From the NCBI RefSeq assembly GCF_006716785.1, contig NZ_VFPQ01000001.1:1612001-1676000 (forward strand): a DNA stretch of 64,000 nucleotides, given 5' to 3'. Position 1 is the first letter of the stretch. Every line of letters starts with the position of its first letter. Origin of the DNA: Thermopolyspora flexuosa (GTDB lineage: Bacteria > Actinomycetota > Actinomycetes > Streptosporangiales > Streptosporangiaceae). The notes beneath the pieces were generated by a model that saw only the letters and a list, made by a program, of their open reading frames with translations, was not told the DNA's origin and made no database searches. This document shows, piece after piece, positions 1 to 57,137 of this stretch. A program made the translations under genes and the position numbers.

Positions 1-2728
1 CCACGAGAGTCACGTCGATGCCGACCGGGGTGCCCCGGAAACCGAGTCCGGGGATCTGGTAAGCGGGGTGTTCGGCGAGCGTGATCTCGTACATGGACGT
101 GGTCGCGGTGATCGCGTCGGACACGTCGCCGCCGACGAACCGCACGATCGCCGGCGCCGCGGCCATGGCGAACCCGCCGAGCCCGGCGGTCTCGGTGATC
201 GTCGAGTCGCCGATGTCCGGGTTGGCGTCGTCCGGGCCGTACGCGCCGAGGTAGAGGCCGTCGGGCACCCCGGCCGGGCCGGTGAACCACTGGTCGGGCA
301 GCCCGGACACCTGGATGCCGAAGTCGGTGCCGTTGCGGGCCATGCAGACCACCATCGTCGAGCCCGGCACGCCGCGGGCCGCGTCCGCGCTCACCTTCGC
401 CGCGGCCATGCCCGGGTTGAGGAAGAAGTGGTCGTTGCCGTTGATGAACCGCAGCACCTCGGCGGCGTGCTCGGGGGAGGCCTCCACGATCGCCGGGGCG
501 AGCTCGCGCACCAGCAGCGAGGTCGCCGCCCGGTTGCGGTTGTGCAGCTCGTCGCCCATCTGCAGGGCCTGGGCGATCATCGCGCGCAGGTCGATCGGGC
601 CGGACCGCTCGAGGGCGGCGGCGAGCACCGGGCCGAGCACCTCGCTCATCCAGCGCAGCCGCTCGATCACCTCGGGGCCGTACGCGCCGTACCGCAGCAC
701 CTTGCCGAGGCCCTCGTTGAGCGAGCAGTACGCGGTGCCGCCGTGCTCGGCGTCGTGCACCTCGAACATCCACATCGACGGGCTCACCACGCCCGCCATC
801 GGGCCGACCGTGCGGTGGTGGTGGCAGGGGTCGAGGGTGATGCCGGTGCCCTTGGCGAGCTTCTCCTCGGCCTCCTCGGGGTCGGCGGCGAGCCCCTCGA
901 AGAGCATCGCGCCGATCAGCGCGCCGCGCATCGGCCCGGACGCCCGCTCCCAGGTGATCGGCGGGCCGGCGTGGAAGAACGTGCCGGGCGCGAGGTCGAG
1001 CACCTCGCTCGCCCGCCGTACCCCGACGAGCATGGGCCGCGCCGAGGTCATCCGCCCGATCGCGATCCGGTTCGCCTCCTCGCGCCGCGGGTCGGCGAGC
1101 ACCTTGGCGAGCGCCTCGGCCGTGCCGGGCAGCGGCGGGCGCCAGTCCACCGCGATGTGGTCGACCGCCTGCTGGTCGAGCGCCTCGGCGAGCACCGCGG
1201 TGCCGACGCTGATCACCCGCGGCTCGCCGGAGGGCAGCACGCCGGAGGCCGCGCCGTCCGCCTGCCCGGCATCTCCGGAGGTCACGACCTCCTCGCCGGT
1301 CGCGGCGGGCGCGGGCGCCTCGGCGCCGAGCAGCGCGGCCGCGTGCCGGGCCGCCGCCGCGTTCGACAGGAACACCGCCGCGCCGGCCTCCTGCAGCGCC
1401 GCCGCCTGCCGGTGCAGGCCCTGCGGGTCGGCCTCGGTGCCGACGAGCGCGACCACGACCGCCGCGCCCCGGTCCACCGCGGCCCGGATCGCGGGGGCGA
1501 GCCGCGCGGCCGGATCCGGGTCGGCGGCGAGGCCGAGCACCACGTCGAGCAGGATCACCGAGGCGTCGGAGCGCTCCAACGCCTCCAGCCGCAGCGACGG
1601 GTCGATCATCGGGTGGGGCCGTCCCCGGGTGTACTCGTCGTCCCCGAAGTCGGTGAACTCGCCGCCCGGCACGATCAGCCCGGCCTCGGCGCACAGCGTG
1701 CCGCCGGCGTACAGCCCGCGCAGCGTGCCGCCGGCCGGGACGGACGGCGCGGCGGGCGCCGCCCAGGACGGCCATTCGGGCACCTCGCGGCCGAGCGCGC
1801 GCAGCGCCTTCTCCGCCGCCGCGGTCAGGTCGTCCTGCCCCGGCCCGAGCAGCGCGGTCACCACCGGGGTACGGCAGGCCGCCGCGGCCTCGCGCACCTT
1901 CTCGGCGACCTCGGGCGCGGGCGGCTTGGAGATGAGGAGGATGAGCTCGGTGCCCGGGTCCTCGTCGAGCGCCCGCAGCGCGCGCAGCGTGGACAGCCCG
2001 CCGACCTCGGCCGACAGGTCGCGCCCGCCCACGCCGAGCACGTGGCTCACCCCGACCCCGGCGTGGTCGAGCAGCGCGGTCACCTGCTGCGCGCCGGTGC
2101 CGGAGGCCGCCACCACGCCCACCGGGCCGGGCCGCAGCACGTTGGCGAAGCCGAGCCCGACCCCGCCGATCACCGCGGTGCCGCAGTCCGGCCCGAGCAC
2201 CAGCGCGCCGGTCTCCTCGGCCCGCCGCTTGAGCGCGATCTCCTGCTCCACCGGCACGTTGTCACTGAAGATCATCACTGGCCGGCCGGCCGCGACCGCG
2301 TCCATCGCCTCGGCGAACGCGTGCTCGCCGGGCACGGACACGAGCACGACCGCGTCCGGCGCGAGCCGCGCCGCCGTCCGGGTGGTCCGGGGCGCGGCCG
2401 CCGCCGATGCGCCGCCACCCGTGCGCCGGGCCGCGGCGGCCAGCGCGGCGAACTGCCGCTCCAGCTCCTCGGCGGCGCCGCGCAGCTCCTCGGCCGAGGC
2501 GGCGCGGATCGCCACGAGCAGGTCGTTCGAGGTGCACTCGGGTACGTCGAACCGCAGCTCCCGGGCGAGATCGAGATTGAGGTCGGTGGCCATCGCGACC
2601 AGCGCCACCTCGACACCGGGCCGCGCCGTCAGGGCCTGGCTGATCCGCATCAGGCTCACCGAGTCGTGGTACACGCCCGTGCGCACCTCGACCAGGTCCG
2701 TGGCCTCCGCAATCGTGCCGTCACTCAC
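1..2728 (-). CDS. FdrA (AllF)-DUF1116 (AllG) fusion protein, 3' end cut by window edge
   Basis: The frame is open for at least 909 codons from a GTG at 2728, preceded by AAAGGCGGA, and runs off the left edge. Residues about 1-440 resemble FdrA/AllF, an acyl-CoA-synthetase-like NAD/CoA-fold protein; I see the GVVAASGTGAQQVTALL and LGVGGRDL stretches. A low-complexity Ala/Gly/Glu linker at about 450-475 leads into a DUF1116/YlbE (AllG) domain starting near VISVGTAVLAEALD and continuing through VDWRPP and LNPGM. In E. coli these are separate subunits of oxamate carbamoyltransferase with AllH; the combined size of about 930 residues matches this fusion, so only a few residues should be missing. 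The AllH-like gene lies 12 bp upstream in the same operon. Reaction by family: carbamoyl transfer between a ureido-acid and phosphate. The true substrate here is unproven. Confidence 0.85.
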   Translation of the reverse strand, partial: MSDGTIAEATDLVEVRTGVYHDSVSLMRISQALTARPGVEVALVAMATDLNLDLARELRFDVPECTSNDLLVAIRAASAEELRGAAEELERQFAALAAAARRTGGGASAAAAPRTTRTAARLAPDAVVLVSVPGEHAFAEAMDAVAAGRPVMIFSDNVPVEQEIALKRRAEETGALVLGPDCGTAVIGGVGLGFANVLRPGPVGVVAASGTGAQQVTALLDHAGVGVSHVLGVGGRDLSAEVGGLSTLRALRALDEDPGTELILLISKPPAPEVAEKVREAAAACRTPVVTALLGPGQDDLTAAAEKALRALGREVPEWPSWAAPAAPSVPAGGTLRGLYAGGTLCAEAGLIVPGGEFTDFGDDEYTRGRPHPMIDPSLRLEALERSDASVILLDVVLGLAADPDPAARLAPAIRAAVDRGAAVVVALVGTEADPQGLHRQAAALQEAGAAVFLSNAAAARHAAALLGAEAPAPAATGEEVVTSGDAGQADGAASGVLPSGEPRVISVGTAVLAEALDQQAVDHIAVDWRPPLPGTAEALAKVLADPRREEANRIAIGRMTSARPMLVGVRRASEVLDLAPGTFFHAGPPITWERASGPMRGALIGAMLFEGLAADPEEAEEKLAKGTGITLDPCHHHRTVGPMAGVVSPSMWMFEVHDAEHGGTAYCSLNEGLGKVLRYGAYGPEVIERLRWMSEVLGPVLAAALERSGPIDLRAMIAQALQMGDELHNRNRAATSLLVRELAPAIVEASPEHAAEVLRFINGNDHFFLNPGMAAAKVSADAARGVPGSTMVVCMARNGTDFGIQVSGLPDQWFTGPAGVPDGLYLGAYGPDDANPDIGDSTITETAGLGGFAMAAAPAIVRFVGGDVSDAITATTSMYEITLAEHPAYQIPGLGFRGTPVGIDVTLV

Positions 2729-2740
2729 CGAGTCCGCCTT

Positions 2741-3760
2741 TCACCGCACTTGTGCGATCTCTTCCACCCGCCCCGCGTCCCTGCGTGCGAGGGCGAGTAC
2801 GGCCGACAGACCGGCGCGGATGCCCCAGGTCAGGTCCGCGCCGGAGGTGTGTCCCAGGCGCAGCAGCCGTTGCACCGCGGCATCGAGGGACTGCAGCCCG
2901 ACGATGCCGCGCAGCACCGCCGCGGCCTCGGCGCAGCACTGGCCCTTCGCGGCGCAGTGCAGCAGCGTCGCCGAGATCGGGGTGGTGCGGGTGGGCGCGT
3001 CGAAGACGACCGTGGCGGCGAGCCAGTCGGCCAGCCACACCGCGCGCTCCACGCCCGCGGCCGTGCCGAGGTGGCGCAGCGCGGTGAGCAGGCCGGCGAG
3101 CATGTCGTCGCCGCTCGGGGTGAGCCCGGGGCCGAGGCCCATGATCTGCTCGGCCGCGGTGAGCGCCCCGAGCAGCGAGTCGTTCGCGCAGGCCGCCGCG
3201 AGCTGGGCGGGGAAGCCCGCCTCGTCGAGGCCGGTCGCGCGGCCGGTCGCGGCGCAGATGTCGGCGAGCCGTACCGCGGCACGCTCCAGCCGGGGGATCT
3301 CGGTGAGGCCCAGCGCGGGCATCGGATCCCACCAGCGGCGGATCCGCACCACGGCCCGGCCGGCCTCGACGACCCCGTCGCCGACCGCCGCCTCGTCGCC
3401 GACCGCGAGCGGTGGCAGCGGCTCGGCGAGCACGACCGCGTTGGGCAGTCTCGTCCCCTCCCCGGTCACCAGGCAGACCACGCGCGGCTCGTTCGGCCCG
3501 CGGGTCTCCAGGTAGGCCCCCAGCGGGAACACCGCGAGCACCCGGGCCGGGCGGCGCGACGCCTCCAGCGCCGGGCGCAGGGCCACGCTCGCCGCTCCGG
3601 TGAGCTCGGCCCGTGACCGGGACCCTGTCGCCTTCGTCGTTCCCCTCGTTGCTGCCCTCGTCGTCGCCGGGCGCGACGCGGCCGCCGCTTGTGGCTCGGC
3701 CTTGGCCCGCGCTCCGGACCGGGCGACCCGGGTGGGTGTCCGGCGTGTACCGACGCTCAT
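2741..3760 (-). CDS. DUF2877 (AllH/YlbF-like) subunit of carbamoyltransferase
   Basis: 339 residues from ATG 3760, which has GGGGAAG about six bases upstream. The DUF2877 core runs from about residue 60 to the end and shows the family's GLGPGLTPSGDDMLAGLL motif and a PTRTTPIS stretch. The first 60 residues are Ala/Arg/Thr-rich low complexity; a GTG at 3586 with GGAG eight bases ahead would give a 281-residue protein close to the E. coli AllH length, so the start is uncertain. It is the first gene of a minus-strand pair with the AllF-AllG fusion, 12 bp apart. DUF2877 proteins form the third part of the oxamate carbamoyltransferase complex, which makes carbamoyl phosphate for carbamate kinase. 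It diverges from the PucR regulator at 3940, which probably controls it. Confidence 0.82.
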   Translation of the reverse strand: MSVGTRRTPTRVARSGARAKAEPQAAAASRPATTRAATRGTTKATGSRSRAELTGAASVALRPALEASRRPARVLAVFPLGAYLETRGPNEPRVVCLVTGEGTRLPNAVVLAEPLPPLAVGDEAAVGDGVVEAGRAVVRIRRWWDPMPALGLTEIPRLERAAVRLADICAATGRATGLDEAGFPAQLAAACANDSLLGALTAAEQIMGLGPGLTPSGDDMLAGLLTALRHLGTAAGVERAVWLADWLAATVVFDAPTRTTPISATLLHCAAKGQCCAEAAAVLRGIVGLQSLDAAVQRLLRLGHTSGADLTWGIRAGLSAVLALARRDAGRVEEIAQVR

Positions 3761-3939: not shown

Positions 3940-5595
3940 ATGCCTACGGAACCCTCCCCCCCGGCCCCGCGACTGGCCAGCACCGGGACGATCATCTACG
4001 GCGTCTCCGTCGGGGAGGTGCTGGGCGTCTCCACCCTCGCCGGCGCCCGCCTCATCGCGGGCAAGGGCGGCCTCAACCGCATCGTGCAGCGGCTCAACGT
4101 CATGGAGGTGCCCGACATCCTCGCCTGGGTGAAGCCGCACGAGCTGCTGCTCACCACCGGCTACCCGCTGCGCAACACGCCCCAGTCGCTCGGCCGGCTC
4201 GTCGCCGACCTCGACGAGCGGGGCCTCGCCGCGCTCGGCATCAAGCTCGGCCGGTACGTCGACGAGCTGCCCGACGAGATGATCGAGCAGGCCGACCGGC
4301 TCGACTTCCCGCTGATCCTGCTGCCGAACGACGTCGGCTTCGACGACATCCTCAACCAGGTGCTCACCGACATCCTCAACCGGCAGGCCGCGATCCTCGC
4401 CCGGGCCGAGGAGGCGCACCGCGCGCTCGTCCAGGTGGTGCTCGCCGGGGGCGGGCTGCGCGAGGTCGCCGCCGAGGTGGCGAACCTGCTCGACGTCGCG
4501 GTGGCGATCCTCGACGGGGCCGGGCACGTGCTCGCCACCGCGGGCCCCCCGGACGACGTGGCCGTGCTGTGCGAGGCCGCCGTGCGGGAGTCCACCACGC
4601 CGGGGGTAACCTGGGCGGTGGCCTCGGGGTCCTCGGGGGTGGCCTGGCCGGGCGGTGACGGCGCCGACGGGGGGTTCGCGGCCGTACCGGTCGTCGCCGG
4701 CGGCCACCACCACGGCCGCCTCGTCGCCTACAGCCCCACCGGCACCCTCCGCGACAGCGACGTCGGCATCCTGGAACGCGCCGCGACGGTCGCCGCGCTC
4801 GTGATCACCAAACAGGAGGCGGTCACCGCCGTGGAGAGCAAGTACCGGGCGGACTTCCTTCGGGACGTGCTCATCGGGCGGGGCGGGCCGCGGGTCACCG
4901 AGCGGGCGCGCGCGTTCGGCTGGGACCTGGAGCGGCCGGTGACCGTGGTGGTCGCCGAGATGGACCCGGACGGGGAGGAGCGCTCGGCCCAGGACCGGCT
5001 GCTCTCCGCCTGGGTGTCGGCGGTGCGGCGGCACGACCCGCGCGGCGCGGTGGCGGGCTTCTCGCACGAGGTCGTCGCGATCGTCGGGGCCGGGGTGGAC
5101 GTCACCCGGCTCACCCGGGACGCCCAGACCGCGTTCGGCGACAGCGCCCCCGCCACCTTCTCCACCGGCATGAGCCGGGTCGCGCACGGCGTGGACCTGC
5201 TGCCCGACGCGTACGGCCAGGCGCTCAAGGCGGCCCGGGTCGGCCGCCAGCTCCACGGGCCCGGCGCGATCGCCCACTTCGACCAGCTCGGCGTCTACCG
5301 GCTGCTGTCGCTGGTGAACGACACCGCCGAGCTGCACGCGTTCGTCGCCGAGACGCTCGGCCCGCTCGCCTCCGACGACGACGCCGAGAACGTCGACCTG
5401 CGCCGTACCCTGCAGGTGCTGCTGGAGACGAACCTCAACGTCGCCGAGACGGCCCGGCGGCTGCACTTCCACTACAACACCCTGCGCTACCGCATCGGCA
5501 AGCTCGAGCGCATGCTGGGCCGGTTCACCGAGGACGCGCACCTGCGCCTCAACCTCACCCTCGCGCTGCACGTGCTGCGCATGCGCGGCATCTGA
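3940..5595 (+). CDS. PucR-family transcriptional regulator
   Basis: 551 residues. The N-terminal PucR domain (about 20-145) shows GVSVGEVLGVSTLAGARLIAG and an EVPDILAWVKPHELLLTTGYPL block. A CdaR GGDEF-like middle region lies near 290-410. The C-terminal HTH_30 domain (about 490-545) carries NLNVAETARRLHFHYNTLRY, the DNA-binding helix pair typical of PucR/CdaR proteins. Start ATG 3940 has a GGGAG-like site about 10 bases ahead. PucR proteins activate purine or other nucleobase catabolic genes in Gram-positive bacteria in response to a pathway intermediate. Here it sits between the divergent AllFGH-like genes and the permease/molybdenum hydroxylase operon, so it probably controls both sides. 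The inducer cannot be read from sequence. Confidence 0.88.
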   Translation: MPTEPSPPAPRLASTGTIIYGVSVGEVLGVSTLAGARLIAGKGGLNRIVQRLNVMEVPDILAWVKPHELLLTTGYPLRNTPQSLGRLVADLDERGLAALGIKLGRYVDELPDEMIEQADRLDFPLILLPNDVGFDDILNQVLTDILNRQAAILARAEEAHRALVQVVLAGGGLREVAAEVANLLDVAVAILDGAGHVLATAGPPDDVAVLCEAAVRESTTPGVTWAVASGSSGVAWPGGDGADGGFAAVPVVAGGHHHGRLVAYSPTGTLRDSDVGILERAATVAALVITKQEAVTAVESKYRADFLRDVLIGRGGPRVTERARAFGWDLERPVTVVVAEMDPDGEERSAQDRLLSAWVSAVRRHDPRGAVAGFSHEVVAIVGAGVDVTRLTRDAQTAFGDSAPATFSTGMSRVAHGVDLLPDAYGQALKAARVGRQLHGPGAIAHFDQLGVYRLLSLVNDTAELHAFVAETLGPLASDDDAENVDLRRTLQVLLETNLNVAETARRLHFHYNTLRYRIGKLERMLGRFTEDAHLRLNLTLALHVLRMRGI

Positions 5596-5851: not shown

Positions 5852-5995
5852 CATGAAGAGCCGCGTCACCACGTCTAACCTGCCCGCAACGGGTGACGGA
5901 CGTCACGTCCGGCCCGGTGGAAAGTGTTAGTCGCCGCGGTGGGTTTTGCCTGCGGGGTGGCGCCCGGCCGACGGCCCGGCACAAGAGGGGCTCAT

Positions 5996-7387
5996 ATGGC
6001 ATTCGGGTGGAAGGTGCACGGAGAGGGCCGCAAGCTGGCCCCTGGCGATGTGGTCAAGCCGGACGAGCGGCTGTCCTGGCCACGCACGATCGGATTCGGC
6101 GCCCAGCACGTGGTCGCGATGTTCGGCGCGACCTTCGTGTTCCCGCTCGTCATGGGGCTGGACCCGAATCTCGCCGTGATGATGTCCGGCGTCGCCACGA
6201 TCATCTTCCTGCTCATGGTGAAGGGGAAGGTGCCGAGCTACCTCGGCACCAGCGCCTCCTTCGTCGCCGGCGTCGCGGCGATCCGCGGGCTGTTCGGTGG
6301 TGACACGCCGGCCGTCGACAAGATCGTAACGGGTGCGATCCTCGTCGCCGGCCTCGTGCTCGCCATCTTCGGTCTGCTCATCCACTTCCTCGGTGTCGGG
6401 TTCATCCACCGCATCTTCCCGCCGGTGGTCACCGGCGGCGTGGTGATGCTGATCGGGTTCGGCCTCGCGTTCGTGGTCGCGGACACCTACTGGCCGCAGG
6501 ACCAGTGGATCGCCCTGATCACGATGGTCGTCACCTTCCTGATCATGGTGCTGTTCCGCGGCTTCATCGGACGCATCGCCGTACTGCTCGGCCTGATCGT
6601 CGGCTACGTGCTCTCCTGGGTGGCCGACCGGGTCTTCGGGAACATCACCGCCTTCAACGCCGGCACCGGCCAGGTGGACACCCACCCGCGGGTGGACCTG
6701 TCCGCCGTCGCCGACGCGCCGTGGATCGGCCTGCCGGACTTCCACGCGCCGGACATCCGGGTCTCCGCGGTGCTGCTCGTGCTGCCCGCCGTGATCGCCC
6801 TGATCGCGGAGAACATCGGGCACGTCAAGGCGGTGGGTGAGATGACCGGCGTCGACGCCGACCCGTACATGGGCCGGGCGATCGCCGCGGACGGCGTCGC
6901 GACCGTGGTCGCCACCTCGGTCGGCGGCTCGCCGACCACCACCTACGCCGAGAACATCGGCGTCATGGCCGCGACCCGGGTGTACTCCACGGCCGCCTAC
7001 TACGTCGCCGCGATCATCGCGATCCTGTTCGGCCTCTGCCCGAAGTTCGGCGCGCTCATCGCCGCGACTCCGGGCGGTGTGCTCGGCGGGGTCTGCGTGA
7101 TCCTCTACGGCATGATCGGCATGCTCGGCGCGAAGATCTGGGTGGAGAACCGGGTGAACTTCGCGGACCCGGTGAACATGGTCCCGGTCGGCGCGGGCAT
7201 CATCCTCGCCATCGGCCCCGTGGACCACGCGATCACCGGCGAGTTCACCATCGGCGGCATCGCGCTCGGCACGATCGTCCTGCTCGGCGGCTACCACCTG
7301 CTCCGCGCCCTCGCCCGGCGCGGGTCGTCGCCCGCGGAATCCGCCCCGGTCGGCGAGGTCGCGGCCGAGAAGGGCGCCGCCGGGTGA
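5996..7387 (+). CDS. NCS2-family nucleobase permease, uracil type
   Basis: 463 residues from ATG 5996, chosen because AGAGGGG stands six bases ahead; an upstream in-frame start at 5924 lacks this. About 12-14 hydrophobic segments. The NCS2 signature region near residues 275-325 reads AENIGHVKAVGEMTG and then SPTTTYAENIGVMAATRVYS, the form found in uracil/pyrimidine transporters such as UraA and RutG rather than in xanthine/urate members (which have a TTFSQN-type motif). The protein should be a proton symporter in the cytoplasmic membrane bringing in uracil or a related base. It is followed by the molybdenum hydroxylase genes after 73 bp. The pairing suggests the imported base is the hydroxylase substrate. 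Confidence 0.9.
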   Translation: MAFGWKVHGEGRKLAPGDVVKPDERLSWPRTIGFGAQHVVAMFGATFVFPLVMGLDPNLAVMMSGVATIIFLLMVKGKVPSYLGTSASFVAGVAAIRGLFGGDTPAVDKIVTGAILVAGLVLAIFGLLIHFLGVGFIHRIFPPVVTGGVVMLIGFGLAFVVADTYWPQDQWIALITMVVTFLIMVLFRGFIGRIAVLLGLIVGYVLSWVADRVFGNITAFNAGTGQVDTHPRVDLSAVADAPWIGLPDFHAPDIRVSAVLLVLPAVIALIAENIGHVKAVGEMTGVDADPYMGRAIAADGVATVVATSVGGSPTTTYAENIGVMAATRVYSTAAYYVAAIIAILFGLCPKFGALIAATPGGVLGGVCVILYGMIGMLGAKIWVENRVNFADPVNMVPVGAGIILAIGPVDHAITGEFTIGGIALGTIVLLGGYHLLRALARRGSSPAESAPVGEVAAEKGAAG

Positions 7388-7460: not shown

Positions 7461-8333
7461 GTGAAACCGCCCCCATTCGACTACCACGCCCCGCGCACCG
7501 TCGGCGAGGCCCTCGAGGTCCTCGCCGACGCGGGGCCGGAGGGCAAGGTTCTGGCCGGGGGACAGAGCCTCATTCCGCTCATGAACATGCGTCTCGCCGC
7601 ACCGGCGAGGCTCGTCGACATCAACCGGATCGGCGCGCTCGACACCGTCGCCGCCGACGCCCGCGGCGTACGGGTCGGCGCGCTCGCCCGGCACGCCACG
7701 GTGGAGCGCTCGGCCGCGGTGGCCGAGCGCCAGCCGCTGCTGCGCCAGGCGCTGCGGCACGTCGCCCATCCGGTGATCCGTAACCGCGGCACCGTGGTCG
7801 GCAGCCTCGTGCACGCCGACCCGGCCGCGGAGCTGCCGGCCGTGCTCGCCCTGCTGGGCGGCACGGTACGGCTCGCCCGCCACGGCGCGCCGGAGCGCGA
7901 CGTGCCCGCGGACGAGTTCTTCCTCGGGCCGCTGGAGTCCGCGCTGCAGCCCGGCGAGCTGGCGGTCTCGGCGTTCTTCCCGGCCCTGCCGCCGGGCTCC
8001 GGCACCGCGTTCTGCGAGATCGCCCGGCGGCACGGCGACTTCGCGCTCGCCGGGGTCGCCGCGCTCGTCACCCTCGACGACGACCTGCGCATCACCACCG
8101 CCAAGGTGGCCTGCATCGGGGTCGGCCCGGTGCCGGTCGTCGTCGACGTGTCGGCCGAGTGCGCGCGCCGCCCGGCCGCCTCGGCGGACTGGCCCGCGGT
8201 GGCGGCCGCCGTACGGGACCGGGTGGAGCCCGAGGACGACATCCACGCCACGGCCGAGTACCGGCGGCACCTGACCGGGGTGCTCGCCGAGCGCGCCCTG
8301 CGCATCGCCGCGGAACGGGCGTCGCATGGCTGA
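7461..8333 (+). CDS. Molybdenum hydroxylase FAD-binding subunit (CoxM-like)
   Basis: 290 residues from GTG 7461. The N-terminal PCMH-type FAD domain shows AGGQSLIPLMNMRLAAP (about 31-47) and RGTVVGSLVHADPAAELPAV (about 112-130), the two flavin-contact loops of CoxM and XDH FAD subunits. The C-terminal CO_deh_flav_C domain follows. It passes electrons from the iron-sulfur subunit to an acceptor. Gene order M-S-L with overlaps (8 nt into the next gene) is that of CO dehydrogenase-like and xanthine dehydrogenase-like heterotrimers. The locus, with PucR and a uracil-type permease, argues for a nucleobase oxidase or dehydrogenase rather than CO oxidation. Confidence 0.9.
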   Translation: MKPPPFDYHAPRTVGEALEVLADAGPEGKVLAGGQSLIPLMNMRLAAPARLVDINRIGALDTVAADARGVRVGALARHATVERSAAVAERQPLLRQALRHVAHPVIRNRGTVVGSLVHADPAAELPAVLALLGGTVRLARHGAPERDVPADEFFLGPLESALQPGELAVSAFFPALPPGSGTAFCEIARRHGDFALAGVAALVTLDDDLRITTAKVACIGVGPVPVVVDVSAECARRPAASADWPAVAAAVRDRVEPEDDIHATAEYRRHLTGVLAERALRIAAERASHG

Positions 8334-8904
8334 AGGCGCACCTGAAGCGAAGGGGAGTACCGGGGTGGGGACCGAAACCCTGTTCGACATATCGCTGACC
8401 GTCAACGGCGTGGTCCGGGAGGCGAGGGTGCCGGCGCGGCGGCTGCTGTCCGACTGCCTGCGGCACGATCTCGGGCTCACCGGCACCCACGTGGGCTGCG
8501 AGCACGGCGTGTGCGGCTGCTGCACGGTGCTGCTCGACGGCGAGCCGGTGCGCTCCTGCCTCACGTTCGCGGTCTCCGTGGACGGGCACGAGATCACCAC
8601 GATCGAGGGCCTCGCCGCCCCGGACGGCACGCTCTCGCCCGTGCAGCGCGCGTTCGCCGAAAGCCACGCCCTGCAGTGCGGGTTCTGCACGCCGGGCTTC
8701 CTGTGCACGGTGACCGCGCTGCTCAGGGAGAACCCTTCGCCGAGCGACGAGGAGATCCTCGAGGGCATCTCCGGCAACCTGTGCCGGTGCACCGGCTACC
8801 AGAACATCATCAAGGCCGTGCACCGCGCGGCCGAGATCGCCGCGGAGGAGAACGGGGCCGGGGTGCCCGCGGGGAGCCACCGAGCAGTGACGGAGGAATC
8901 GTGA
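8326..8904 (+). CDS. Molybdenum hydroxylase [2Fe-2S] subunit (CoxS-like)
   Basis: 192 residues. Both cluster motifs are complete: Cys58, Cys63, Cys66, Cys78 in the plant-ferredoxin domain and Cys118, Cys121, Cys153, Cys155 in the helical domain (QCGFCTPG and NLCRCTGYQNI). It relays electrons from the molybdenum centre to FAD. The frame begins 8 nt before the CoxM-like stop; the first ~18 residues exceed typical CoxS, and a GTG at 8365 is an alternative start. The 3' end overlaps the large-subunit start in a GTGA motif, so the three products should be made in fixed ratio. Confidence 0.93.
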   Translation: MAEGAPEAKGSTGVGTETLFDISLTVNGVVREARVPARRLLSDCLRHDLGLTGTHVGCEHGVCGCCTVLLDGEPVRSCLTFAVSVDGHEITTIEGLAAPDGTLSPVQRAFAESHALQCGFCTPGFLCTVTALLRENPSPSDEEILEGISGNLCRCTGYQNIIKAVHRAAEIAAEENGAGVPAGSHRAVTEES

Positions 8905-11300
8905 CGACCAGCCTGTTCGGCGAGCGGGTGCAGCGGCTGGAGGACCCGCGGCTGATCACCGGCAACGGACGCTACCTCGACGACCTCGGCAGGGACGCGC
9001 TCGCCGTCGCCTTCGTCCGCTCCCCGCACGCGCACGCCCGGATCCGGGACATCAACGTCGACCGCGCGCTCGACGTGCCCGGCCTGGTCGCCGTCTACAC
9101 CTGGGAGGACCTGCCGGCGCGGGTCGGCGAGCCGCTGCCGCTGCTCATCCCGCACCCGGCGCTCACCCACGGCCGCACCGCCCGCCCGCTCGCCAAGGAC
9201 GTGGTCCGCCACGTCGGCGAGCCCGTGGTGATGGTCGTGGCCGAGGACCGGTACACGGCCGAGGACGTCTGCGACCTGATCGAGGTCGACTACGAGCCGC
9301 TCCCGGCGGTGGTCGGCATCGAGGAGGCGGTGCGCGGCGAGCACCTGGTGCACCCGGACGTGCCCGGCAACGTCGGCGCCCACCTGGTGCAGGAGGTGCC
9401 CTCGGCGGACGGCCGCAGCGCCGCCCAGATGATCGAGTCGGCCCCGCACCGGCTCGAGTTCCGGCTCGACATCGAGCGCAGCGCGTCGATGCCGCTGGAG
9501 GGGCGCGGCGTGTACGCCCGCTGGGACCCGGACGACGGGTCGCTGCGCGTCTACTCCTCCACGCAGACCTCGACCAGCGTGCGCATGGCGATCGCGGCCA
9601 AGCTCGGCCTGCCGCTGCCCAAGGTCGAGGTGATCGCCCCGGACGTCGGCGGCGGGTTCGGCGTCAAGATCGTGCACCCGTGGCCGGAGGAGATCCTCAT
9701 CCCGTGGGCGGCTCGCACGCTGGGCCGCGAGATCAAGTGGACCGAGGACCGGCGCGAGCACTTCATCTCCTCCGCCCACGAGCGCGGCCAGGTCCAGTAC
9801 GTGCGGGTCGGCTTCGACGACGACGGGCGCATCCTCGGCCTGGACGTGACGTTCCTGCACGACCACGGCGCCTACACGCCGTACGGGATCATCGTGCCGA
9901 TCATCACGTCCACCCAGCTGCTCGGGCCGTACAAGCCCGGGGCGTACCGGGTGGAGTTCTCCTCGGTCTACACCAACACGGTGATCGTCACCCCGTACCG
10001 CGGCGCGGGCCGGCCCCAGGGCGTGTTCTGCATGGAGCGCACCATGGACCGCATCGCGGCCTACCTGGGCAAGGACCGCACCGAGGTGCGCGCGGCGAAC
10101 TTCATCCAGCCGGACGAGTTCCCCTACGACCACAAGATGACCTTCCAGGACGGGAGGCCGCTGATCTACGACAGCGGCAACTATCCCGAGGCCCTGCGCA
10201 TGCTCAAGGAGCTCATCGGCTGGGACGAGTTCGAGAAGGAGCGCGAGCGCGCCGCGGCCGAGGGCCGCCGCCTCGGCATCGGCATCGGCTGCTACGTGGA
10301 GGGCACCGGCGTCGGGCCGTACGAGGGCGGGCACGTGCAGATCACCTCGGACGGCCGGGTGCACGTGTCCACCGGCCTCACCTCCCAGGGCCAGGGCCAC
10401 CAGACGGCGTTCGCCCAGATCGCGGCGACCGAGCTCGGGGTGCCGATCGAGCGGGTCTCGGTGGTCACCGGCGACACCCGCCGGTTCGGGTACGCCGTGG
10501 GCACCTTCGCCTCCCGCGCCGCGGTGATGAGCGGCAACGCGATCGCGCTCGCCTGCCGCAAGGTGCGCGACAAGGCGCTGCGCATCGCCGCCGAGGCGCT
10601 CGAGGCCGACCCGGCCGACCTGACGATCACCGACGGGATCGTGCACGTCAAGGGCAACCCCTCGGCCTCGATCCCGCTCGCCACCGTCGCGGTGCTGTCC
10701 AACCCGCTGCGGTACGCCTTCGACGAGGAGGCGCAGCGCGCCACCCAGTTCGCCACCGCGGCCTCGGACGACAAGCCGCCGGTCGCGGAGGGGGAGGAGC
10801 CGGGCCTGGAGGGCCGCGACTACTACTCGCCGGTCCGGTCCACGTTCGCGTACGGCATGCACGCGGCGATCGTGGAGACCGACCCGGAGACCGCCGAGAT
10901 CAAGGTGCTGCGGTACGCGGTGGTGCACGACTGCGGCCGCCTGATCAACCCGATGATCGTCGACGGCCAGATCCACGGCGGCGTGGCCCAGGGCATCGGC
11001 GGCGCGCTGTACGAGCGCATGGTCTACGACGAGCACGGCCAGCTGCTGAACGCCTCGTTCATGGACTTCCTCATGCCGTACGCCACCGAGGTGCCCCGGG
11101 TCGAGACCGCCCACCTGGAGACCCCGAGCCCGCTCAACCCGCTCGGCATCAAGGGCGCGGGCGAGGCGGGCGTCATCCCGGTCTCCGCGGTGATCGCGAG
11201 CGCGATCGAGGACGCCGAGGGCATCCCGATCATGAGGATGCCGATCTCCCCCTCGGAGCTCTTCCACCTCCGCCGTACCGCCACCGAGCGGGTCGGCTGA
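8901..11300 (+). CDS. Molybdenum hydroxylase large subunit (CoxL/XDH-like)
   Basis: 799 residues from GTG 8901 with GGAGGA four bases ahead. Ald_Xan_dh_C and molybdopterin-binding domains are complete. The loop at 365-371 reads PYRGAGR, the form II CoxL-like type (AYRGAGR) and not the AYRCSFR loop with catalytic Cys of true CO dehydrogenase, so CO is an unlikely substrate. The conserved base Glu is at 755 in KGAGEAGVIP. Family members hydroxylate carbons next to ring nitrogens. With the uracil-type permease upstream and a barbiturase-family enzyme at 57 kb, uracil/thymine dehydrogenase activity is an attractive guess; xanthine or hypoxanthine remain possible. Confidence 0.9.
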   Translation: MTTSLFGERVQRLEDPRLITGNGRYLDDLGRDALAVAFVRSPHAHARIRDINVDRALDVPGLVAVYTWEDLPARVGEPLPLLIPHPALTHGRTARPLAKDVVRHVGEPVVMVVAEDRYTAEDVCDLIEVDYEPLPAVVGIEEAVRGEHLVHPDVPGNVGAHLVQEVPSADGRSAAQMIESAPHRLEFRLDIERSASMPLEGRGVYARWDPDDGSLRVYSSTQTSTSVRMAIAAKLGLPLPKVEVIAPDVGGGFGVKIVHPWPEEILIPWAARTLGREIKWTEDRREHFISSAHERGQVQYVRVGFDDDGRILGLDVTFLHDHGAYTPYGIIVPIITSTQLLGPYKPGAYRVEFSSVYTNTVIVTPYRGAGRPQGVFCMERTMDRIAAYLGKDRTEVRAANFIQPDEFPYDHKMTFQDGRPLIYDSGNYPEALRMLKELIGWDEFEKERERAAAEGRRLGIGIGCYVEGTGVGPYEGGHVQITSDGRVHVSTGLTSQGQGHQTAFAQIAATELGVPIERVSVVTGDTRRFGYAVGTFASRAAVMSGNAIALACRKVRDKALRIAAEALEADPADLTITDGIVHVKGNPSASIPLATVAVLSNPLRYAFDEEAQRATQFATAASDDKPPVAEGEEPGLEGRDYYSPVRSTFAYGMHAAIVETDPETAEIKVLRYAVVHDCGRLINPMIVDGQIHGGVAQGIGGALYERMVYDEHGQLLNASFMDFLMPYATEVPRVETAHLETPSPLNPLGIKGAGEAGVIPVSAVIASAIEDAEGIPIMRMPISPSELFHLRRTATERVG

Positions 11301-23810: not shown

Positions 23811-24545
23811 GTGAACGGCATCACCGGCAGGATCGCCGTGGTCACCGGCGCGGCCCAGGGCATCGGCGCCGCCGTGTGCGCCGGGCTCGCCAAGGCCGGG
23901 GCCACCGTGGCCGCGTTCGACGTCCGGCCCGTGCCCGAGACCAACCCGGGCCGGCCGTACCGGGTGGACGTGCGCGACGCGGCGGCCGTGGAGGAGGCCG
24001 TCGACCGGGTCGAGCGGGAGCTGGGGCCGGTCGACATCCTCGTCAACGTGGCCGGAGTGCTGCAGCCCGGGCCGGTCACGTCGATCACCGACGAGCAGTG
24101 GCGGCGGCACTTCGCGGTCAACACCGACGGCGTCTTCCACCTGTGCCGGGCCGTCGCCCGGCGCATGGTGCCGCGCCGCCGCGGCGCGATCGTCACGGTC
24201 GCGTCGAACGCGGCCGGCATCCCGCGCATGGACATGGCCGCCTACGCCGCGTCCAAGGCCGCGGCCGCCCTGTTCACCAAGTGCCTCGGGCTGGAGCTCG
24301 CCCGCCACGGCATCCGCTGCAACGTGGTCTCGCCCGGCTCGACCGACACCGCGATGCTCGCCGCGCTCGGCATCGCCGACCCGGTCGGCGGCGACCTGAA
24401 GCGGTACCGGGTCGGCATCCCGCTCGGCCGGGTCGCCGCCCCCGAGGACATCGCCGACGCGGTGCTCTTCCTCGCCTCCGACCAGGCCCGGCACATCACC
24501 ATGCACGACCTGTACGTCGACGGCGGGGCCACGCTGCGCGCCTGA
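23811..24545 (+). CDS. entA: 2,3-dihydro-2,3-dihydroxybenzoate dehydrogenase
   Basis: 244 residues from GTG 23811. Classical [14 protein letters not shown] near residue 10 binds NAD, NVAGV near 80, and the catalytic Tyr-x3-Lys is in [19 protein letters not shown] near 143. The length and the [18 protein letters not shown] segment fit EntA/DhbA. It oxidises 2,3-dihydro-DHB to 2,3-dihydroxybenzoate, the aryl cap of catecholate siderophores. First gene of the iron-box-controlled operon; isochorismate synthase, the DHB-AMP ligase, isochorismatase, a carrier protein and an NRPS follow. Confidence 0.92.
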
Positions 24546-24601: not shown

Positions 24602-25714
24602 ATGCACGCCCCACCACCTGAGACCGGTGCCTTCGACCCCGCCCGGTCCGCCATCTTCGCCTCGCCGCGCCGTACCCTGCGCGCGGACGGCGTCGCCGCC
24701 CGCCTGACCGGCGGGCTCGACGGGCTCGCCCACCGGGTCGCCGAAGCGCTGCGGCCCGGCTCCCTCGCCGTGGGAGCCGTCTCCTTCGACGGCGCGGGCC
24801 ACCTGGTCGTGCCGGAGACCCACACCTGGGGCGAGGGCGACGACGCCCTGCTCGCCGCCGCCCCGGCCCCCGCGCGCGACTGGCGGATCACCCTGGTGCC
24901 GCACCCCCGGGACTACGCCAAGGCGGTACGGCTCGCGCTCGACCGGCTCGAGGCCGGGGCGCTCACCAAGGTCGTGCTCGCCCGCAGCCTCACCCTGCGG
25001 GCGCCCGGCCCGGTGAGGGCGGCCGAGCTGCTCGCCACCCTGCCCGCCGAGGGGTACCGGTTCGCGGTGCCGCTGCCCGGCGGCCGCACCCTCCTCGGGG
25101 CGAGCCCCGAGCTGCTCGTCCGCCGGGAGGGCGACGCGGTCGTCGCCAACCCGCTCGCCGGGTCCGCCGCCCGCAGCGCCGACCCCGCCGAGGACCGGCG
25201 GCGTGCCGAGGCGCTGCTCGCCTCGGCGAAGGACCGGCACGAGCACCGGGTCGTGGTGGAGGCGGTGGCCGACGCGCTCGCGCCGTACTGCGCCGAGCTC
25301 GACGTGCCGGAGCCGGAGGTGATCGCCACCGGGGCGGTGTGGCACCTGTCCACCCGGATCACCGGACGGCTGCGCGACGCGGACACGCCGGTGCTCGAGC
25401 TCGCCGCCGCGCTCCACCCCACCCCGGCGATCTGCGGCACCCCGGTGGCCGACGCCCGCAAGGTGATCAAGGAGCTGGAGCCGTTCGACCGGGGCTTCTA
25501 CACCGGGCTTGTCGGGTGGACCGACGCGTCCGGCGACGGCGAGTGGGCGATCGCGCTGCGCTGCGCCGAGCTCGACGGCGAGACCGCCCGGCTCTTCGCG
25601 GGCGCCGGGATCGTCGCCGGATCCGAGCCCGAGGCCGAGCTCGCCGAGACGTCCGCGAAGTTCCGCACCATGCTGCGCGCACTGGGGGTGAACACCGATG
25701 CCGCCGACGCCTGA
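24602..25714 (+). CDS. entC: Isochorismate synthase
   Basis: 370 residues from ATG 24602, with AGAAGGA seven bases ahead. The chorismate-binding domain spans about 100-360. The [46 protein letters not shown] and [10 protein letters not shown] motifs are those of EntC/DhbC, including the conserved Glu and Lys residues for Mg2+ and water activation. It converts chorismate to isochorismate, using the product of the aroC pathway encoded at 59.8 kb. It overlaps the next gene by 17 nt. Confidence 0.94.
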
Positions 25715-27257
25715 CGGGGTCGTGCCGTACCCGCCGGAGTTCGCCGAGCGGTACCGCGCCAAGGGCTACTGGCGCGGGCAGACCTTCGGCGGCCTGCTCC
25801 GCGAGCTCGCCGGGAGGTACGGCGAGCGCACCGCGATCGTCGACGGGGACCGGCGGTGGACCTACCGCGACCTCGACCGCAAGGCCGACCGGCTCGCCGC
25901 CGGGCTGTACGGGCTCGGCATCCGGCCCGGGGACCGGGTCGTGCTCCAGCTCCCCAACATCGCCGAGTTCTACCAGGTCTGCTTCGCCCTGTACCGGATC
26001 GGCGCCTGGCCGGTGTTCGCGCTGCCCGCGCACCGGTCGGCCGAGATCGGCTACTTCTGCTCGTTCACCGAGGCCGTGGCGTACATCCACCCGGGGGTGC
26101 ACGCCGGGTACGACCACGCCGAGATCGCCCGCGGCCTCGACGTGCGGCACGTGCTCACCCCGGACACGCTGCCCGAGACCGACCCGATCGAGCTGCCCGG
26201 ACCGAAGCCGGGCGACGTCGCCTTCCTCCAGCTCTCCGGGGGCAGCACCGGCCTGCCCAAGCTCATCCCCCGGACCCACGACGACTACATCTACAGCTTC
26301 GAGGCGAGCGCGCGGATCTGCGAGCTCACCCCGGAGAGCGTCTACCTGTGCGCGCTGCCCGCGGCGCACAACTTCCCGATGAGCTCGCCCGGCGTGTTCG
26401 GCGTGCTGTCCGCCGGGGCGACCGCGGTGATGGCCCCCGACCCCAGCCCGGACACCTGCTTCCCGCTCATCGAGCGCGAGCGGGTGACGATCACCGCGCT
26501 GGTGCCGCCGCTCGCCCTCGTCTGGATGGACGCCGCGCCGAAGACCAGGCACGACCTGTCGAGCCTGCGGGTGCTCCAGGTCGGCGGGGCGAAGTTCACC
26601 GAGGAGGCCGCCCGGCGGGTACGGCCCACGCTCGGCTGCACGCTCCAGCAGGTGTTCGGCATGGCCGAGGGGCTGGTCAACTACACCCGGTACGACGACC
26701 CCGAGGAGATCATCGTCACCAGCCAGGGCCGCCCGATCAGCGAGGACGACGAGATCCGCATCGTCGACGACGAGGACCGCGAGGTGCCCGAGGGCACCGT
26801 GGGCCACCTGCTCACCCGCGGGCCGTACACGATCCGCGGCTACTACAAGGCCCCGGAGCACAACAAGAACGCGTTCACCGAGGACGGCTTCTACCGCACC
26901 GGCGACCTGGTACGGCGGCTGCCGAGCGGCCACCTCGTCGTCGAGGGCCGGGCCAAGGACCAGATCAACCGCGGCGGCGACAAGATCGCCGGCGAGGAGG
27001 TGGAGAACCACCTGCTCGCCCACCCGAACGTGCACGACGCGGTCGTGGTCGGCGTGCCCGACCCCTACCTGGGCGAGCGCGCCTGCGCCTACGTGATCCC
27101 GAAGGGCGAGCCGCCCACCCGGGCCGAGCTGCGCAGGTTCCTGCGCGACCGCGGCATCGCGGCCTTCAAGATCCCAGACCGGTTCGAGTTCGTGGACGCC
27201 TTCCCCACCACCGCCGTCGGCAAGGTGAGCAGGCGGCGGCTGCGCGAGCTCTCCTGA
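25698..27257 (+). CDS. entE: 2,3-dihydroxybenzoate-AMP ligase
   Basis: 519 residues. Stand-alone adenylation enzyme with [20 protein letters not shown] (A3 loop), [15 protein letters not shown] (A5, aryl-acid type), [20 protein letters not shown] (A7/A8) and the catalytic Lys in [12 protein letters not shown]. The NYTRYDD and [11 protein letters not shown] segments are characteristic of EntE/DhbE aryl-acid ligases. It activates DHB and loads it onto the aryl carrier protein at 27912. Translationally coupled to entC. Confidence 0.95.
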
Positions 27258-27919: not shown

Positions 27920-28169
27920 GCCGACCCCTGCCGCCGCCGCGCTGCGCGCCCGCATCGCCGAGCTGATGTACCTCGAGCCGGAGGACCTGGAGTTCGACGA
28001 GAGCCTCATCGACCAGGGGCTCGACTCGATCCGGGTGATGACCCTCATCGAGGAGTGGAAGACCGAGGGCATCGAGCTCACCTTCCCCGACCTCGCCGAG
28101 GACCCGACGATCACCGCCTGGGCGAGGCTGCTCGACGAGGCGCGGGCCCGCCTGGGGGAGGGGCGATGA
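27912..28169 (+). CDS. Stand-alone aryl carrier protein (ArCP)
   Basis: 85 residues from GTG 27912. The phosphopantetheine site is Ser39 in [17 protein letters not shown], the GLDS(I/M)R form of aryl carrier domains. It carries the DHB thioester from the ligase to the starter condensation domain of the NRPS. It starts inside entB (8-nt overlap) and overlaps the NRPS by 4 nt. Split from isochorismatase, unlike the fused EntB/DhbB, either by domain fission or as a different lineage. Confidence 0.92.
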
Positions 28170-34100: not shown

Positions 34101-34963
34101 TCGGCGTGGAGATCTCGATCGGCGACCTGTTCGAGGCGCCCAGCCCGGCCGCGCTCGCCGCGCTGCTCGACCGCGGCGAACGGGCCGACCCGCTCGGCGT
34201 GCTGCTGCCGCTGCGCTCCGCCGGGGACCGGCCGCCGCTGTTCGCGATCCACCCCGCGGGCGGGCTGAGCTGGTGCTACAGCGGGCTGATCCGCGCCATC
34301 CCGGCCGGGCACCCGATCTACGGCGTGCAGGCGCGGCGCGACCCGCTGCCGGCGAGCATGACCGAGCTCGCCGCCGACTACGTCGCGCAGATCCGGTCGG
34401 TGCAGCCGCGCGGGCCGTACCACCTGCTCGGCTGGTCGGCCGGCGGGATCATCGGTCACGAGGTCGCGGTGCAGCTCCGGGAGGCCGGTGAGGAGGTCGC
34501 CACGCTGGCGATGCTCGACGCCTACCCGGCGGACGGCTTCCGGCTGCTGCCGCCCGCCGACGAGGCCGAGGCCATGGAGGCGCTGCTCACCATGGGCGGC
34601 TTCCACCCGGACATCGTGCCCAGGCTCGAGCTCGACGCGGTGATCGAGGTGTTGCGCCGCGAGGGCAGCCCGCTCGCCGGGCTCGGGCCGGAGGTGCTCG
34701 CCTCGCTGAAGGACCTCTACCTCAACCTCAACCGGCTGATCCGGGAGTTCTCGCACCGGACCTTCGACGGCGACGTGCTGTTCTTCCGCGCCGTGGTGGA
34801 CACCGTGGACGACGGCCTCACCGCCGACACCTGGCGGCCGTACGTCACCGGGCGGATCGTCAACCACGAGGTGGCGTGCAGCCACAAGGACATGACCCAG
34901 CCCAAGCCGATCGCCGAGATCGGCGCGATCGTCGCGGCGCGGCTCAAGGAGCGGCACCCGTGA
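28166..34963 (+). CDS. Dimodular siderophore NRPS, C-A-T-C-A-T-TE (DhbF-like)
   Basis: 2265 residues from ATG 28166, overlapping the carrier gene (ATGA). C1 has HHILVDA at 130-136; A1 has [10 protein letters not shown] near 570 and Lys884; T1 Ser936; C2 HHIAGDG at 1116-1122; A2 [10 protein letters not shown] near 1571; T2 Ser1965; TE Ser2091 in GWSAGG. Reading pocket residues by alignment to GrsA gives A2 = D F W N I G M V H K, the canonical Thr code. A1 = D A D D V G H V D K (Asp615 first) has several acidic residues and suggests Arg, Lys or Orn. Layout and terminal Thr imply threefold iteration by the TE and a trilactone, as in bacillibactin or griseobactin. No epimerisation domain is present, nor an MbtH partner in the window. 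Confidence 0.95.
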
Positions 34964-56198: not shown

Positions 56199-57137
56199 GT
56201 GGGCGAACGCGTACTGATCGCATTGGGCGGCAACGCGATGACCGGCCCGGACGGCAGCGCCGCGCCGGAGGACCAGCGGCGCGCCATCGAGGAGGCGATG
56301 CGGCACGTCGCGGAGCTGCGGGCGCGCGGCCACCAGGTGATCCTCACCCACGGCAACGGCCCCCAGGTGGGCAACGTGCTGCTGAAGAACCAGCTCACCG
56401 CCGACGTGGTGCCGCCGGTGCCGCTCGACTGGTGTGTGGCGACCACCCAGGCCACCATCGGCACGCTCGTGCTCAACGCGCTGGGCGGCCGCACCGCCGT
56501 GGTGGTCACCCGCACCCTGGTCGACGCCGCCGACCCGGCCTTCGCCGACCCGGTCAAGCCGATCGGCCGCTACTTCACCGAGGAGGAGGCGGCCCGGTTC
56601 GAGCGGTTCGGTGAGACCTGGCGGCGGTTCGACAAGGGCTGGCGGCGGGTGGTCGCCTCCCCCGAGCCGGTGGAGATCCTCGACGCCGAGGCCGCGGTCG
56701 CGCTCATGGAGAGCGGCTTCACCGTCGTCGCGGCCGGGGGCGGGGGAGTGCCGGTGGTGCGCGAGCCCGACGGCACGCTGCGCGGCGTCGCCGCGGTGAT
56801 CGACAAGGACCTCGCCGCCGCGGTGCTCGCCAGGGACGTCAAGGCGTCCACCCTGGTGATCGCGACGAACGTGCCGCACGCGTTCGTCGGGTACGGCACG
56901 CCGCGGCAGCGTCCGGTCGGGCGGGTGACGCCCGAGGAGCTGCGGGCACTGCAGGCCGAGGGGCACTTCGCCCGCGGCAGCATGGGCCCGAAGATCGAGG
57001 CGGCGGCGCGGTTCGTCGAGAACGGTGGGGAGCGCGCCGTGATCACCACGCTGGAGCGGATCGGCGAGGCGCTCGACGGCGAGGTCGGCACCGTGGTCCG
57101 GACGGCCGCGGGGCATGGGACTGGCGAAAACGGATGA
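56199..57137 (+). CDS. arcC: Carbamate kinase
   Basis: 312 residues from GTG 56199. Amino acid kinase fold: [64 protein letters not shown] and [18 protein letters not shown] are all carbamate kinase signatures, including the PVK loop ([10 protein letters not shown]). It makes ATP from carbamoyl phosphate and ADP, releasing ammonia and CO2. No arginine deiminase or ornithine carbamoyltransferase is near; instead the next gene, 16 bp on, is a ring-opening amidohydrolase. The window's only candidate source of carbamoyl phosphate is the AllFGH-like complex at 1-3.8 kb, as E. coli pairs AllFGH with carbamate kinase. Confidence 0.95.

Follow-up and report, generated by a model that had tools for sequence, protein, structure and literature searches.

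The fused F-G gene

The window analysed here is a stretch of 64,000 nucleotides from the genome of the actinobacterium Thermopolyspora flexuosa. Its first gene (1..2728, minus strand) encodes an FdrA-type protein (F), a small module and a DUF1116/AllG protein (G) in a single frame. This frame begins with a GTG codon at 2728, exits the window at base 1 and continues for another 149 bases outside it. Its full length in the genome is 958 codons without an internal stop (locus L002, 11852-14728, 958 aa), and the gene is present as a single copy. In the full protein, Pfam recognizes, in this order, CoA_binding (residues 201-289, E 1.5e-5), Ligase_CoA (339-465, E 1e-24) and AllG (PF06545, 630-842, E 6e-100). 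The profile search thus agrees with the original prediction that proteins of the FdrA and DUF1116 families are joined here in one polypeptide, with the reservation that the NCBIfam FdrA model NF004760, matching residues 15-545 of the part encoded in the window, scores 391 bits, below its cut-off of 433. OTCase-type domains were not found in the protein by Pfam at E 0.001, which places it outside the aspartate/ornithine transcarbamylases.

The F part (residues ~1-470; 1319..2728) resembles succinyl-CoA synthetase, and is followed by an Ala/Gly-rich linker (residues ~471-503; 1220..1318) that differs from the linkers of other fused genera. This linker had been predicted to lead into the DUF1116 domain. 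The Ala/Gly-rich stretch does exist, but behind it lies a module of 45 residues (~504-548; 1085..1219) that had been overlooked. The G part comprises residues 549-958, of which 549-909 are encoded within the window (1..1084). All these parts are on the minus strand. Both halves have solved relatives, i.e., FdrA (3dmy, query 102-475) for F and 3clq (query 550-954) for G.

A structure model was made for a complete fused ortholog, that of Acrocarpospora corrugata (L036; 933 aa, 36 rows), and reached a pLDDT of 88.1 and a pTM of 0.80. The module is predicted to be folded (blocks 481-530 at 85-91), while the linker is modeled with less certainty (blocks 451-480 at 73-85). Foldseek matches of this model are 3clq, 3dmy and alpha chains of succinyl-CoA synthetase. 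Across 21 aligned rows, GPDCGT (179-184), SGTG (209-212), HPM (372-374), K676, W693 and G725-D726 are among the residues conserved without exception or with a single one; in the G columns, this single exception is affected by a misframed Photobacterium G with 15 stops. These residues are candidates for mutants.

Neighboring genes

Directly upstream of F-G, on the same strand, lies the gene of a third subunit, H (DUF2877/AllH; 2741..3760, start uncertain; PF11392, E 2.6e-26). No solved relative of H was found by sequence. Its model has a pLDDT of 85.2 but gave no Foldseek match at E ≤0.001, and the best VIA-align Z score was a middling 5.5. Divergent from H, and like the permease and hydroxylase genes after it on the plus strand, is a gene for a PucR-family regulator (3940..5595). 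It is followed by an NCS2 nucleobase permease (5924..7387), for which RutG is the best NCBIfam match, below its cut-off, and by the FAD subunit (7461..8333), the 2Fe-2S subunit (8326..8904) and the Mo-binding subunit (8901..11300, start approximate) of a molybdenum hydroxylase. The nearest solved structures of the Mo-binding subunit are N-heterocycle hydroxylases; its NCBIfam class is aerobic CODH group 5.

Most or all of this set (PucR, NCS2 permease, Mo hydroxylase and H) flanks F-G in most loci of the Streptosporangiaceae, as seen in flanks of 6 kb. Within the same 6 kb, this also holds for Actinomadura, Nocardioides, Pseudonocardia, Embleya and Glycomyces. Exceptions at this distance are L076 and L081, where no members other than PucR and H were seen, and the Modestobacter loci, with only the Mo hydroxylase.

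Further into the window, catecholate siderophore genes are located at 23811-24545, 25698-27257, 28055-34963 and 40998-41978. In this order, they comprise a 2,3-dihydro-2,3-dihydroxybenzoate dehydrogenase, a dihydroxybenzoate-AMP ligase, a frame of 2302 codons that is perhaps a peptide synthetase, and an iron-siderophore-binding-like protein (below cut-offs).

Relation to the E. coli AllFGH and YahEFG systems

Bit scores against the two E. coli systems take no clear side. The window F reaches 267 bits with YahF compared to 256 with AllF, its G 388 with YahG compared to 365 with AllG, and its H 51 with AllH compared to 41 with YahE. The gene order in the window is H-F-G as in yahEFG, whereas the E. 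coli all genes are ordered F-G-H. The module offers a second comparison, as it is found at the C-terminus of AllF (513-554) and at the N-terminus of YahG (12-53), the two matching with 28.6% (E 0.001). In 14 of the 16 split rows of the alignment, YahG and 13 other split relatives, the gene border lies ahead of the module; the two All-type rows, those of E. coli AllF and of Photobacterium, whose F has 553 aa, have the border behind the module. Since the module ends AllF but starts G elsewhere, the alignment indicates that the order F-module-G is constant and that the gene border has moved. In a tree of 20 rows, built without the Photobacterium row, the window protein falls into a clade of actinobacteria (100/100), and a second clade (100/100) holds E. 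coli AllFG together with two distant fusions.

For E. coli AllFGH, assays with carbamoyl phosphate and oxamate as substrates have shown oxamic transcarbamylase activity (PMC11326118). The system in the window shares with it all three subunit families, the carbamate kinase partner and, presumably, the chemistry, in which an N-carbamoyl amide and phosphate give an amide and carbamoyl phosphate. It differs by its fused H-FG organization and its barbiturase-linked lineage, compared to the separate genes in the order F-G-H, the module on AllF, the allantoin gene context and the separate clade of AllFGH. Taken at its Pfam names, and in line with the original prediction, F-G with H would be an oxamate carbamoyltransferase acting on oxalurate from allantoin. 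The identity of the three families, of which PF06545 and PF11392 are named by Pfam after AllG and AllH, and the slightly higher score of H to AllH speak for this. On the other hand, All-type F-G proteins form their own fully supported clade, and the gene order and gene border in the window cluster and its split relatives are unlike the All-type. Moreover, the AllD family (PF02615), looked for as the source of oxalurate, is missing from the window genome and from four more (G434, G407, G478 and G567) of the ten genomes tested; it is present in the other five, and all ten have a PF09663 (barbiturase family) gene. An oxalurate-cleaving function is accordingly improbable, even if it is the best of the alternatives weighed here. 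With its clade apart from E. coli AllFG, its yahEFG-like order and border, the lack of an AllD family and its tie to barbiturase, the fusion does not appear to be AllF/AllG in function, and the name AllF-AllG probably misleads.

The E. coli yahEFG-yahI genes have in common with the window the H-F-G order, the module at the start of G and a nearby carbamate kinase-like gene, but they are split and group with Peptoclostridium, apart from the window clade. Neither the locus annotation nor a literature search gave a function for them. In E. coli K-12 (L147, 2926-8116) they are annotated without a substrate, and their order and border are common to the relatives of the window cluster.

Linkage to barbiturase and carbamate kinase

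At 54 kb from F-G, beside aroC/aroB, the window contains a carbamate kinase gene (56199..57137, plus strand), directly followed on the same strand by a gene of the barbiturase family PF09663 (57115..58260 from the first start; the true start is probably ~40 bases later). The kinase passes the cut-off of the subfamily model NF009007/PRK12352; against TIGR00746 it scores 335 bits, below the cut-off of 358. All ten genomes examined have a PF09663 gene, adjoined by a carbamate kinase match in nine of them, the window genome included; in G646, no carbamate kinase was seen beside it. For the PF09663 protein of the window, the match to barbiturase 5hwe reaches 620 bits, compared to 320 for the best cyanuric acid hydrolase. 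Streptosporangium, Thermobispora and Rhodococcus erythropolis JCM3132 are listed in group VI of the AtzD/barbiturase family (PMC3758960). The NCBIfam cyanuric acid hydrolase model NF052395 passes on the window protein as well (479 against a cut-off of 360). As regards JCM3132, we take this strain to be the source of the characterized barbiturase.

Co-occurrence within the Actinomycetota was followed in a family sample (297 genomes) and a phylum sample (396 genomes). The family sample has AllG in 192 genomes and PF09663 in 188; 183 have both, 9 AllG only, 5 PF09663 only and 100 neither, counts for which kinship leaves a p-value little meaning. Eight of the 192 have weak AllG matches (E above 1e-80). 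The match is strong (E below 1e-80) in the other 184, and PF09663 occurs in 182 of these, in G647 only weakly (E 3.4e-18). In 33 of the 183 pairs, chosen mostly from few-contig genomes, the two genes are on one contig in 32 cases, 25-120 kb apart.

The phylum sample has AllG in 49 genomes and PF09663 in 27, with 22 having both, 27 AllG only and 5 PF09663 only. In the G tree, these 22 group as a single clade (99/94), apart from E. coli AllG, and the ten other phylum rows fall outside it; this tree was built without the 17 lower-scoring AllG genomes, none of which has PF09663. Co-occurrence requires one change on the tree, compared to a mean of 8.7 in shuffles, none of 500 being as low. The sister clade consists of five rows with F-G but without barbiturase.

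In 14 of these 22 genomes, which belong to other families, AllG and the PF09663 gene share a strand, at a distance of 3.7-17.7 kb. The 14 fetched loci contain H (14), carbamate kinase (12), the NCS2 permease (11) and the Mo hydroxylase, coxM (10). No carbamate kinase was seen in the fetched loci L218 and L226, and of the four without a Mo hydroxylase, three have ~2 kb or less of sequence past G. The usual order is PucR, then BAR (the PF09663 gene), in some cases an amidohydrolase, NCS2 permease, carbamate kinase, H, F, G and coxM-S-L. In L229, where the sequence is cut before F and G, coxMSL precedes carbamate kinase. L086 (Acidimicrobiaceae) has consecutive BAR-H-F-G-coxMSL genes and, past them, a cytosine/purine permease; the PF09663 copy of this operon scores 591 bits to barbiturase and 317 to cyanuric acid hydrolase.

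A related arrangement is found on the Aminobacter plasmid pSR8, where an F-G pair is accompanied by a carbamate kinase and by TrzD, a cyanuric acid hydrolase that scores 810 bits to 5t13. It resembles the window in combining F-G with a PF09663 enzyme and a carbamate kinase, and differs in having cyanuric acid hydrolase in place of barbiturase, split genes and a position in another clade. The cluster (L148, 6992-12085) is located on a conjugative plasmid. By analogy, its gene content suggests phosphate-dependent cleavage of biuret with a gain of ATP. Together with the NF052395 match, pSR8 raises the question whether the fused F-G has biuret or carboxybiuret as its substrate, as a step of cyanuric acid breakdown. 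We consider this quite unlikely, as the window PF09663 protein is much closer to barbiturase and the barbiturase-linked clade does not include the pSR8 pair. In addition, we know of no place for a nucleobase permease and a Mo hydroxylase in cyanuric acid breakdown. In nitrifiers, allFGHK has been described beside biuret genes (PMC12625717).

Purine breakdown with a xanthine dehydrogenase has also to be weighed, in which case co-occurrence with barbiturase would reflect shared ancestry only. PucR and NCS2-type neighbors suit purine clusters as well, as illustrated by the Peptoclostridium H-F-G genes, which are flanked by a xanthine permease and PucR, and the family genomes are mostly close kin. 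Nevertheless, the Mo-binding subunit scores only ~175 bits to xanthine dehydrogenase compared to 461 to 6-hydroxypseudooxynicotine dehydrogenase and 457 to quinoline 2-oxidoreductase, and in other families the PF09663 gene is situated within the same cluster, which makes a purine route very doubtful.

Proposed function in the oxidative pyrimidine pathway

Barbiturase opens the ring of barbiturate to yield ureidomalonate (N-carbamoylmalonamate), a homolog of oxalurate that is one carbon longer and has the same N-carbamoyl amide end. Carbamate kinase, as a member of a breakdown cluster, is a sign that carbamoyl phosphate is formed; taken together with the barbiturase product and the AllFGH families, phosphorolysis of ureidomalonate is the simplest joint reading. 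The same logic would apply to biuret for TrzD, F-G and carbamate kinase on pSR8. The F-G fusion and H are thus probably a carbamoyl-phosphate-forming transcarbamylase that cleaves ureidomalonate, from a lineage that is dedicated to oxidative pyrimidine breakdown. We infer the reactions, and above all ureidomalonate as the substrate, from context, i.e., from the fused frame, families, gene content, linkage and clade observed here.

In the proposed pathway, the NCS2 permease would import uracil, which the Mo hydroxylase would convert to barbiturate, the substrate of barbiturase. H and F-G would then turn ureidomalonate and phosphate into malonamate and carbamoyl phosphate, from which carbamate kinase would form ATP, ammonia and CO2. 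This differs from the oxidative pathway as outlined in PMC3758960, in which ureidomalonase gives malonic acid and urea; a phosphorolytic step with a gain of ATP is proposed here. Against the proposed pathway stand the genomes that have PF09663 without AllG, 5 of 27 in the phylum sample and 5 of 188 in the family sample, as well as the F-G rows without barbiturase, the large distance between F-G and barbiturase in the window and its family, the loci that lack carbamate kinase or Mo hydroxylase genes, and the match of the window PF09663 protein to the cyanuric acid hydrolase model. No paper pairing "barbiturase" with "carbamate kinase" was found in a literature search, and none of the literature matches listed links FdrA or DUF1116 to barbiturate in its title or the start of its abstract.

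Concerning the fate of malonamate, no gene was identified in the window or in the operon gaps scanned. With regard to an amidase, the gaps of L217 and L224 hold PAS or response-regulator proteins and the gap of L219 gave no match. The protein at 25698-27257 was considered as a malonyl-CoA synthetase and rejected, as it passes the 2,3-dihydroxybenzoate-AMP ligase model. Two other genes of the window encode a caprolactamase-alpha-like protein (44059-46143, below cut-off), which we take to be of the HyuA type, and a class III CoA-transferase (49359-50525). Relatives of both are found near coxL in G434 (L181), and caprolactamase-alpha-like proteins also in L220 and L226. It is possible that these two proteins carry out later steps of the pathway.

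Authenticity and probable repeated origin of the fusion

A frameshift at the junction could mimic a fusion. In the F-G frame, however, third-position GC stays at 0.93-1.0 in each 30-codon window across residues 421-615, and residues 456-515 contain no homopolymer of at least four, which speaks against a frameshift. Frames of like kind occur in seven named species of Acrocarpospora and Herbidospora, each in its own assembly. Within the genus of the window organism, the fusion rests on one genome and is unconfirmed by a second: another genome of the genus (G452, 78% complete) gave no AllG match, and the nearest record (L079, 94% identical) stops at residue 344, before G. The window linker contains GAGGAGGTC-GTGA, with GAGGAGG upstream of GTGA; on the basis of this motif, it may represent a former start of G, which is a suggestion only. 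Although the linker carries these signals, the junction is covered by no second genome of the genus, and F and G are separate genes in 55 of the 62 named loci that carry them on the same strand (overlapping by 4 bases in 24 of the 55), it is highly improbable that the frame is an assembly or sequencing frameshift and that two proteins are made in the cell, given the even codon-position GC, the lack of homopolymers and the seven fused species of two other genera.

As anticipated, F and G appear to work together: of 64 named loci, 62 have them either next to each other or fused, and they have been fused more than once. The survey of their architecture in actinobacteria shows that the fusion is rare: seven of the 64 are fused (four Acrocarpospora, three Herbidospora) and 55 split; the record L079 breaks off ahead of G, and in L092 the two genes are encoded on different strands. 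Besides the 4-base overlaps of the G start with the F stop, five of the 55 split loci have an eight-base one; with overlaps so frequent, a small frame change is able to join F and G. The family sample was surveyed through open frames of at least 850 codons, in addition to the loci from searches. It has 36 such places, nine of them fused, of which five have a sequence identical to that of a named locus from Acrocarpospora or Herbidospora and four carry the same two genus labels. The phylum sample has four, two fused (G380 and G388) and two without a detectable F. Open-frame length was therefore discarded as a sign of fusion, since only 11 of the 40 places are fused, 27 being split with G in another frame and two lacking F.

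In a tree of 84 F+G rows, three changes are required to account for the 14 that are fused. The fusions of the window gene, Acrocarpospora and Herbidospora are therefore most simply explained by separate events; one gain and two losses within the family would cost one change more. The linkers of these three groups are unlike one another. G380 and G388 group with E. coli AllFG, and by this placement their fusions arose independently, in the All-type lineage. The F-G fusion is rare, yet it recurs, being found in the window gene, in Acrocarpospora and Herbidospora and in two distant genomes. It would have formed more than once from neighboring, often overlapping genes by stop loss or a frame change, leaving the chemistry unchanged. 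A fixed 1:1 ratio of F to G, presumed in the original prediction, is a plausible consequence.

DUF1116 genes also occur alone on some plasmids. L151, L152 and L153 encode DUF1116 proteins without a listed F or H nearby; their neighbors are glutamine-synthetase-like genes (Rhodococcus), a Mo hydroxylase and HpxZ (Azospirillum) and a Mo hydroxylase (Paraburkholderia), respectively. In Arthrobacter pAD51 (L156, 7001-8397), a partial G match lies just ahead of carbamate kinase and atzC; the gene table of PLSDB for this plasmid, which is incomplete, shows no G gene.

Biological significance

On balance, it seems likely that H and the F-G fusion are specific for ureidomalonate and make the barbiturate route of actinobacteria energy-conserving, and that the FdrA/DUF1116/DUF2877 proteins are phosphorolases of N-carbamoyl amides, sorted by clade according to their substrate (oxalurate, ureidomalonate and probably biuret). 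To our knowledge, the ureidomalonase step of uracil breakdown is known only as an enzyme activity. If the proposed function is correct, a gene set for this step would be at hand in ~200 sampled actinobacterial genomes, the step could save ATP, and the Pfam names AllG and AllH would cover a family with several substrates. The shifting gene border and the repeated fusions, in turn, make F-G a clean case of a multi-subunit enzyme turning into one chain.
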